Translations under genes and position numbers: made by a program
Notes under the pieces: generated by a model
Seen by the model: the letters and a program-made list of their open reading frames with translations, nothing else
Told to the model about the DNA's origin: nothing
Database searches by the model: none
Shown: piece after piece, positions 4,452-63,757 of the stretch
How positions within the stretch are numbered: the stretch's first letter is position 1
Layout: every line of letters starts with the position of its first letter
Assembly: GCA_003242085.1 (NCBI GenBank)
Contig: QBML01000007.1
Coordinates: 62,001 to 126,000, forward strand
From: Pseudanabaena frigida
GTDB lineage: Bacteria > Cyanobacteriota > Cyanobacteriia > Pseudanabaenales > Pseudanabaenaceae
Direction: 5' to 3'
Length of the DNA stretch: 64,000 bases

Positions 4452-4490
4452 AAAAAGAAGAGGAGGCGCATAGCGCCTCCTCTTCTTTTT
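4452..4490. terminator. 18-bp hairpin between cpeA and cpeY
   Basis: Left arm 4452-4469 and right arm 4473-4490 are perfectly complementary over 18 bp with the three-base loop ATA. The ends are A- and T-tracts, so it can act as an intrinsic terminator in either direction. It lies after the cpeA stop on the cpe transcript and before cpeY, so it is a candidate attenuator separating abundant cpeBA mRNA from cpeYZ. A partial inverted copy of the loop region follows at about 4499-4516. Confidence 0.75.
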
Positions 4491-13199: not shown

Positions 13200-13883
13200 A
13201 TGACCTGTCATTTATTAATTCCTGCGGCGGGTAGCGGTAAACGCATGGGAGCAGATCGCAATAAGTTACTGCTGCCCTTAATCGAAAAACCAATTTTGCT
13301 ATGGACGCTCGAAGCAGCGATCGCATCAGAAGCGATCGCTTGGATTGGCGTAATAGGTCAACCCCATGACTATCCTGAGTTTCAAAAAATTTTCCATAGA
13401 CTCAATACCACTAAACCTATCCACCTAATTCAAGGTGGCACAACTCGTCAGGCTTCGGTATTTAATGGATTGAAATCTTTACCATCGAACGGCGATCGCG
13501 TGTTGATTCATGATGGTGCAAGATGTCTAGCAACGCCTCAACTCTTCGATCGCTGCGATAAAGCCTTGCAAACAATGCAAGGCTTTATCGCAGCAGTGCC
13601 AGTTAAGGACACCATTAAAATTGTCGATGGTCAAACAATTGTGGATACTCCTAATCGCGATCATCTCTGGGCGGCACAAACTCCCCAAGGATTTCAAGCA
13701 GATTTGCTCAAGAATGCACATCTTAAAGCTGTGGAACTTGGTTGGGAAGTAACCGATGATGCGGCACTATTTGAGAAGGTGGGATTGCCCGTACAGATTG
13801 TGATGGGTGAAGAAACTAATCTCAAAATTACAACTCCCCAAGATTTAGCGATCGCTGAATTCATTTTAAAGCAGCGAAATTGA
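13200..13883 (+). CDS. ispD: 2-C-methyl-D-erythritol 4-phosphate cytidylyltransferase
   Basis: The 227-residue protein has the nucleotidyltransferase start LLIPAAGSGKRMGADRNK (CTP-binding loop with key Lys/Arg), GGTTRQASVFNGL, the metal-binding VLIHDGARCLAT, and TDDAALFEKVG plus GEETNLKITTPQDLAIAE near the end, all diagnostic for IspD. It converts methylerythritol phosphate and CTP to CDP-methylerythritol, third step of the MEP route to isoprenoids (carotenoids, phytol, quinones) in the cytoplasm. A perfect 19-bp palindrome lies within the coding region at 13552-13594. A 15-bp hairpin follows the stop. Confidence 0.96.
   Translation: MTCHLLIPAAGSGKRMGADRNKLLLPLIEKPILLWTLEAAIASEAIAWIGVIGQPHDYPEFQKIFHRLNTTKPIHLIQGGTTRQASVFNGLKSLPSNGDRVLIHDGARCLATPQLFDRCDKALQTMQGFIAAVPVKDTIKIVDGQTIVDTPNRDHLWAAQTPQGFQADLLKNAHLKAVELGWEVTDDAALFEKVGLPVQIVMGEETNLKITTPQDLAIAEFILKQRN
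13552..13594. repeat. 19-bp palindrome inside ispD coding sequence
   Basis: Arms 13552-13570 and 13576-13594 are perfectly complementary with the loop AACAA. The stretch encodes about DRCDKALQTMQGFIAA, between the metal-site loop and the conserved PVKDTIK strand. Such a long perfect hairpin within a conserved coding region is unexpected and resembles the intergenic hairpins of this window. Confidence 0.9.
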
Positions 13884-13884
13884 T

Positions 13885-13923
13885 AAAAAGAAGAGAGAAT
13901 ATTTCAATTTCTCTCTTCTTTTT
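13885..13923. terminator. Bidirectional terminator after ispD
   Basis: Arms 13885-13899 and 13909-13923 form a 15-bp stem with a nine-base loop, flanked by A- and T-tracts. It lies between the convergent ispD and SH3-domain genes and can serve both. Confidence 0.85.
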
Positions 13924-14302
13924 ATGGATAAGGACATCTTAACTTTAAGAAATCTTCCCTAATCCAACCCTTATAGGGACTTGCTCGAAATCTTGTCGTC
14001 AAATACCAAGTCTTCCCCTCACTATCTTTACGACTAAGCGGAGTTATAACGCCACTCTTGTCGCGATCGTCATTTGCCACAATCACTAGGTTTCCTACTG
14101 ATACAGTACCGATGACATTAAAAATCGTTCCTGCTCCAGAGCGGATATTAACTTGTGAACCAATGTCTTCACCGATAATATCAGCAACACAGCTTTTATC
14201 TGTAATCGATTGAGCGCTAGCACTAGCGGTAAGTTGTGGGGCTACGGAGCCTAGGGTTGCTATCCCTGCAAGAAGGAGAGCAAAAAAATTTGTAGGTTTC
14301 AT
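13922..14302 (-). CDS. Secreted SH3-domain protein
   Basis: The ~126-residue protein begins with a signal peptide (MKPTNFFALLLAGIATLGS, cleavage after ASASAQ) followed by a bacterial SH3-type domain with VNIRSGAGTIFNVIGTVSVGN and a closing GWIREDFLKLRC. Two cysteines, at the start and end of the mature part, may form a disulfide. SH3b domains of this type bind peptidoglycan or protein ligands in the periplasm. ATG 14302 is taken as the start since it begins directly with the signal peptide; ATG 14311 would add MSC. Confidence 0.8.
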   Translation of the reverse strand: MKPTNFFALLLAGIATLGSVAPQLTASASAQSITDKSCVADIIGEDIGSQVNIRSGAGTIFNVIGTVSVGNLVIVANDDRDKSGVITPLSRKDSEGKTWYLTTRFRASPYKGWIREDFLKLRCPYP

Positions 14303-17041: not shown

Positions 17042-17176
17042 GTAAAACCCATAAAGCAAAAAAGGGACAGCTCCTTTTTTACTTTATGGGTTTTACCTTT
17101 CAACAAACAGAGGCGGCGCAAAGCGCCGCCTCTGTTTGTTTGTTTTTTATGTCTTAAGCAAAACTTATTGCTATAG
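17042..17176. repeat. Double hairpin plus tail element, copy 2
   Basis: A first hairpin spans 17042-17095 (15-bp outer arms with a mismatch nearer the loop). A second, perfect 18-bp hairpin has arms 17102-17119 and 17123-17140 with loop AAA. It is followed by the family tail TTATGTCTTAA...TTGCTATAG (17147-17176). The element lies in the space between the divergent membrane-protein and SDR genes. A nearby ATTAGGATTGCTATAT (17255-17270) matches one end of the repeat at 22628-22740. Confidence 0.8.
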
Positions 17177-63672: not shown

Positions 63673-63757
63673 AAAACCCAGATAAGTAGAGGCAGCGCTT
63701 TGCGCTGCCTCTACTTATCTGGGTTTTATGTCCTCAGAAAAACTTGCATTGCTATAG
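63673..63757. repeat. Tailed hairpin element, copy 4
   Basis: Perfect 26-bp arms 63673-63698 and 63702-63727 with loop TTT (apex GC-TTT-GC) are followed by the family tail TTATGTCCTCAG...GCATTGCTATAG (63726-63757), as in the copies at 12841, 17042 and 25901. Confidence 0.85.

Follow-up and report, generated by a model that had tools for sequence, protein, structure and literature searches.

In Escherichia coli, the homogenisation of quasi-palindromes by template switching is established (PMC7202029). Template switching between the arms of inverted repeats has been reported also for genes of Saccharomyces cerevisiae, with spacer inversion among its products (PMC8604942), and it has been put forward as a source of RNA hairpins and as the means by which they are maintained (PMC8794818). 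Mitochondrial genes of Nematomorpha carry perfect inverted repeats, both arms of which code for conserved protein (PMC6649704). The subject of the present analysis is a perfect 19-bp palindrome located within the ispD gene of the cyanobacterium Pseudanabaena frigida, in a stretch of 64,000 nt (contig QBML01000007.1, positions 62,001 to 126,000; hereafter the window, to which the coordinates of this locus refer). Comparison with related genomes makes it fairly probable that an old quasi-palindrome at this place was made perfect by replication template switching.

The ispD site resembles the E. coli quasipalindrome system (PMC7202029) in that an imperfect repeat within a gene would have been perfected by copying between its arms; however, that system is a reporter in which the events were observed directly, whereas at ispD only the evolved product is available. 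The Pseudanabaena hairpins are like the described S. cerevisiae cases (PMC8604942) in that protein-coding genes show homogenised arms and inverted spacers together with amino acid changes, but here the organism is a bacterium, the divergence is deeper and there is no ancestor for comparison. The palindromes reported for Nematomorpha (PMC6649704) likewise have both arms in conserved coding sequence, but, unlike the one in ispD, they are far longer (up to 284 bp), numerous and mitochondrial. A literature search by title and opening of the abstract, with subscription papers mostly outside its scope, retrieved no work on Pseudanabaena hairpins or coding palindromes. A survey published in 2026, covering the perfect inverted repeats of 118,019 genomes, mentions neither cyanobacteria nor Pseudanabaena nor template switching, as a term search of its main text showed.

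The gene and the palindrome comprise the following features:

13200 to 13883, plus strand: ispD, encoding 2-C-methyl-D-erythritol 4-phosphate cytidylyltransferase (227 aa), an intact open reading frame (ORF) of family TIGR00453
13552 to 13570, plus strand: left arm of the perfect inverted repeat, GCTGCGATAAAGCCTTGCA, holding A13560 and C13565, each present in 0 of 22 congeners
13560 to 13565, plus strand: codons AAA GCC (Lys-Ala), with Lys at this place in 0 of 22 congeners
13571 to 13575, plus strand: spacer AACAA, 5 nt
13576 to 13594, plus strand: right arm, TGCAAGGCTTTATCGCAGC, encoding the conserved MQGFIAA and holding A13592, present in 0 of 22 congeners
13540 to 13606, plus strand: predicted RNA fold containing the full 19-bp stem, -35.6 kcal/mol, z of -8.05 against dinucleotide shuffles

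The arms are complementary at 19 of 19 positions, and the whole palindrome (13552–13594), including its 5-nt spacer, is located within ispD. The identity of the gene is evidenced by its NCBIfam TIGR00453 score, 236.5 bits against a cut-off of 181.3, and ispD matches are present in all 38 genomes searched; a search for viral copies of ispD found none. The arms lie in codon register, with Cys-Asp-Lys-Ala-Leu-Gln of the left arm opposite Gln-Gly-Phe-Ile-Ala-Ala of the right. An earlier note on this DNA, made from the letters alone, had described a perfect 19-bp palindrome whose arms encode (R)CDKALQ and MQGFIAA of an otherwise normal IspD. The pairing, the translation and the intact 227-aa frame scoring above the family cut-off all bear this description out.

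Its further statement, that such a hairpin is very unlikely by chance, proved correct. The source genome was sampled as 60 stretches comprising 1.18 of its 5.39 Mb, in which ORFs 100 aa or longer, each shortened by 60 nt at both ends, provided 857 kb of sequence. Perfect arms with a spacer of at most 20 nt were counted in this ORF interior and in 150 synonymous-codon shuffles of it. Arms of at least 11, 12, 13, 14, 15 and 16 bp numbered 22, 11, 7, 7, 6 and 4 in the real sequence, compared with shuffle means of 5.65, 1.73, 0.48, 0.153, 0.073 and 0.0067, respectively, and three real arms had at least 19 bp. These counts retain some spurious ORFs, and one of the three longest arms, of 20 bp (locus L149), lies in an ORF judged intergenic. 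None of the 150 shuffles produced a 19-bp arm, the longest being 17 bp; the shuffled counts drop about 3.3-fold with each extra base, and extrapolation gives about 2e-4 arms of 19 bp per 857-kb sample. The ispD palindrome is thus well beyond chance, and the genes of this genome genuinely hold more long arms than expected.

The site was compared among relatives in a codon alignment of 30 rows, consisting of the source genome, 22 congeners and seven others; eight further genomes without a cut locus were excluded. No gaps were found at the palindrome site in the 29 orthologues. All 22 congeners form 9–14 of the 19 pairs there (mean 11.4), while about five would be expected for unrelated bases, and nearly all of them have the MQGFIAA of the right arm. 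None has the perfect palindrome, which occurs only in this genome among the 23 of the genus; cases with 17 and 18 pairs in the pair scan were read as this palindrome in shifted windows rather than as separate sites. Of the 19 pairs, 17 occur in three or more congeners each, and pairs 13554-13592 and 13565-13581 form in none. This pattern indicates that the protein itself imposes a quasi-palindrome, which this genome completed. Protein constraint alone is ruled out, the perfect form being absent from the 22 congeners despite a near-identical protein. The earlier note had considered that the same nucleotides might be conserved across relatives for this reason, and they are not.

Bases found in this genome and in none of the congeners number 13 in the 681-nt gene, and three of these fall within the arms, where about 0.7 would be expected per 38 arm bases. 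Each of the three (A13560 and C13565 in the left arm, A13592 in the right) is paired; the remaining pair-making bases occur in some congeners. A13560 creates the Lys codon AAA at a position occupied in congeners by E (seven), V (five), R (three), A (three), L (two), Q (one) and D (one). The proposal that one arm is ancestral and the other was changed to match it is consequently only roughly true, since unique bases are present on both. With each codon drawn independently from the congener profiles, the probability of a 19/19 match is 3e-8 to 1e-7, depending on the pseudocount. In an ispD tree built without the palindrome columns, the source genome has its own terminal branch, with 0.13 changes per column and no close sister.

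In the template-switch scenario for ispD, the ancestral state would be an old quasi-palindrome imposed by the protein, with the codons of CDxxLQ facing those of QGFIAA in register. Upon stalling of the polymerase, the nascent strand could fold back onto its own imperfect repeat, and a few bases would then be copied from the opposite arm, so that a few clustered changes would remove the mismatches. The result would persist if tolerated by the protein; it brings in a single new residue, a Lys where congeners vary freely, and the other changes are synonymous or found in relatives. Since both arms contributed, copying once from one arm is insufficient, but an event on the left arm plus a separate change on the right would suffice. 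We infer that the changes were made by one or two template-switch events and not singly. The predictions of template switching are matched by an earlier imperfect repeat and a later perfect one, by derived bases identical to those required by the other arm and by the lack of insertions or deletions.

Several observations weigh against this scenario. The presence of unique bases on both arms is more than one simple switch explains, so that a point mutation or at least one additional event is needed. Many of the pair-making bases exist in relatives (C13583 in five and C13589 in four of the 22 congeners), and part of the match may therefore be inherited. The excess of unique arm bases, 3 versus 0.7, is modest (Poisson probability about 0.04). 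The closest relative is just 84% identical in ispD DNA, and the comparison covers extant sequences only, which leaves the timing of the changes unordered. Inversion of the ispD spacer was not seen in the corresponding columns (13571–13575) of the congeners, and inversion of a 3-nt loop, with orientation checked, is present at two places only, in ligA and downstream of ispD. Hairpins in other genes are no proof of the mechanism at ispD, and for conserved stems selection for the structure is also possible. If the template-switch explanation is right, the essential gene ispD provides a natural case, in a bacterium, of a kind of mutation known mainly from reporters and yeast, and clustered differences that change amino acids can stem from DNA folding instead of selection. 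The palindrome is a real and unusual feature, and its likely cause is an ordinary one, of a kind already known.

Among the other explanations, coincidence survives best, in which independent, mostly synonymous substitutions completed a palindrome already favoured by the protein. The amino acids do impose much of the pairing in all 22 congeners, the arms are in codon register and 17 of the 19 pairs recur in relatives; however, the codon-profile probability given above, the 2e-4 arms expected per 857 kb by extrapolation from 150 shuffles, and the genic excess of arms of at least 15 bp (6 observed versus 0.073 in shuffles) make this explanation unlikely.

A hairpin selected for a role in mRNA (stability, ribosome pausing or processing) or in DNA appears still less probable. 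The predicted RNA stem is very stable, as its folding energy and z value indicate, but a strong hairpin at this position occurs in just one of the 23 genomes of the genus. The stem is followed by AGTGCCAG, which is not a terminator-like T run, and no Rfam family matches within the window; an intrinsic terminator and a known RNA element were rejected on these grounds.

The genome is rich in perfect intergenic hairpins, with 284 arms of at least 15 bp in 216 kb, some of them holding AAAGCCTTGC-like stretches, and could have supplied the palindrome by insertion or by gene conversion from a dispersed copy. This origin is very improbable, as the site is ungapped across the 29 orthologues, the right arm codes for the MQGFIAA shared by nearly all congeners, and the inner 16 arm bases, searched for in the whole genome with up to one mismatch, occur only in the ispD palindrome, once per strand. 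Intergenic hairpins are often A/T-rich on the outside with GCGGCGC-like tips, and a 3-nt loop is their commonest form (58 of 116 hairpins that have arms of at least 16 bp and lie at least in part outside ORFs, from the initial 383 kb of the sample), while the ispD palindrome has neither the GC tip nor the 3-nt loop typical of many of them. Palindromic elements of Rickettsia are inserted in genes, where in-frame palindromic DNA is tolerated. These elements are insertions, whereas the ispD site carries none; some ligA orthologues do differ by in-frame insertions or deletions. The lack of both a gap and other genomic copies of the arm excludes an inserted palindromic element, whether a repetitive extragenic palindrome, a miniature inverted-repeat transposable element or one of the Rickettsia type. 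An artefact of assembly or amplification is the least probable explanation: false fold-back joins are known artefacts and the ispD sequence was taken from the assembly, but such a join would not preserve the frame, length and conserved residues of IspD, all of which are kept, and the alignment of the site with the 29 orthologues is ungapped.

Further coding hairpins of the source genome, with arms of 15 or 16 bp, are located in valS, ligA and sir, the genes being identified by NCBIfam. Each was compared with 22 or 23 congeners, after exclusion of second pieces of ligA (L244 and L245, from genomes G020 and G002) and of valS (L295, from G006), and of a sir paralogue (L270). Two of these hairpins are as follows:

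locus L107, 17284 to 17316: valS coding hairpin, stem perfect in several species
locus L144, 3562 to 3596: ligA coding hairpin, stem perfect in several species

The valS hairpin, near residues 605–617, is perfect, with 13–19 bp, in nine of 24 genomes. Its stems diverge so far that, in the extreme case, 7 of 15 arm bases are shared with the source genome and pairing is nonetheless complete (15 of 15); the amino acids encoded there vary as well. A scan of the whole gene for hairpin scores of at least 11 found one at that place in 15 of the 24 genomes, and in no more than one at any other. In ligA, a perfect stem of at least 15 bp is present at one and the same position in 11 of 23 genomes; ten of these are variants of one stem, and one (L229) is a distinct stem of 24 bp. 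The ligA stem shows paired changes, and eight codons are missing at this site from two congeners (L238 and L239). Between arms that are the same and equally oriented, the loop is GAA, TTC, TTT or AAA, which represents loop inversion. The perfect form in sir is common to some congeners, without gaps. The three genes speak for a process by which hairpins are made and repaired. As traces of such a process elsewhere in the genus, valS and ligA count in favour of the template-switch scenario for ispD.

The suggestion of the earlier note that a palindrome-forming process acts in genes where the protein tolerates it thus fares well for valS and ligA, in which hairpins form and persist at protein-tolerant places. 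It does not extend to ispD in the sense of a copied intergenic hairpin, since the arm is absent elsewhere, there is no gap, and the typical tip and loop are missing. The reported RNA hairpins (PMC8794818) are similar to those in valS and ligA in that stems remain perfect while the sequence changes; they are shown in RNA genes, however, and not in bacterial protein genes. It is conceivable, although we put this forward tentatively, that Pseudanabaena has an unusually active homogenisation of hairpins, dense between genes and also rewriting housekeeping proteins in valS (about residues 605–617), ligA (about 255–266) and ispD (118–132). Perfect hairpins would arise, flip their loops and stay perfect while amino acids change, so that DNA symmetry, and not protein selection, sets part of the protein. 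What valS and ligA show across the genus is a more interesting lead than ispD itself, and their changing yet perfect stems make the origin and maintenance of hairpins testable with genomes that are already public.

The density of long arms in ORFs was determined by the same method, with fewer shuffles, in three other genomes. Congener G002 has one arm of at least 14 bp in 283 kb and congener G022 has seven in 268 kb, some of the latter being in spurious ORFs or GC-rich repeat-like elements and at least three in short ORFs over the intergenic family; G027, of another family, has none in 280 kb. A minus-strand ORF of locus L145 (17341–19644, 767 aa, no NCBIfam match) contains a 23-bp perfect inverted repeat 106 nt into its sequence.

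Perfect intergenic hairpins form a dense family, with examples at 4452–4490, 17102–17140 and 63673–63727 of the window and at sample loci L099–L118; their arms are often AAAACCCAAATAAATAGAGGCGGCGC-like, with a 3-nt loop. Arms of at least 15 bp are far rarer inside genes, with 6 in 857 kb versus 284 in 216 kb between them, and the noncoding sample of G027 has 16 in 84 kb. Several contigs start with a hairpin copy (L108, L109, L112, L113 and L118), as expected of repeats that break assemblies. A perfect or near-perfect hairpin follows ispD at 13883–13925 of the window and is found at the same place in most congeners (L002–L023), with differing sequences; between G005 and G012 its arms are identical and its loop is inverted (GAA versus TTC).

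Loss of the hairpin- or strand-cutting nucleases SbcD, SbcC and XseA is no explanation for the many hairpins, because the source genome keeps SbcD, XseA and an SbcC-like protein, the latter scoring below the family cut-off, as in 35 of the 38 genomes. Two SbcD proteins above the cut-off are encoded by 22 of the 23 genomes of the genus versus none of 15 from other families. In the source genome the second adjoins an SbcC-like gene, and the two loci are:

G000, C6, 96085 to 96861: SbcD protein
G000, C34, 197 to 958: SbcD protein

That a genus so rich in hairpins has two such nucleases may be more than coincidence.
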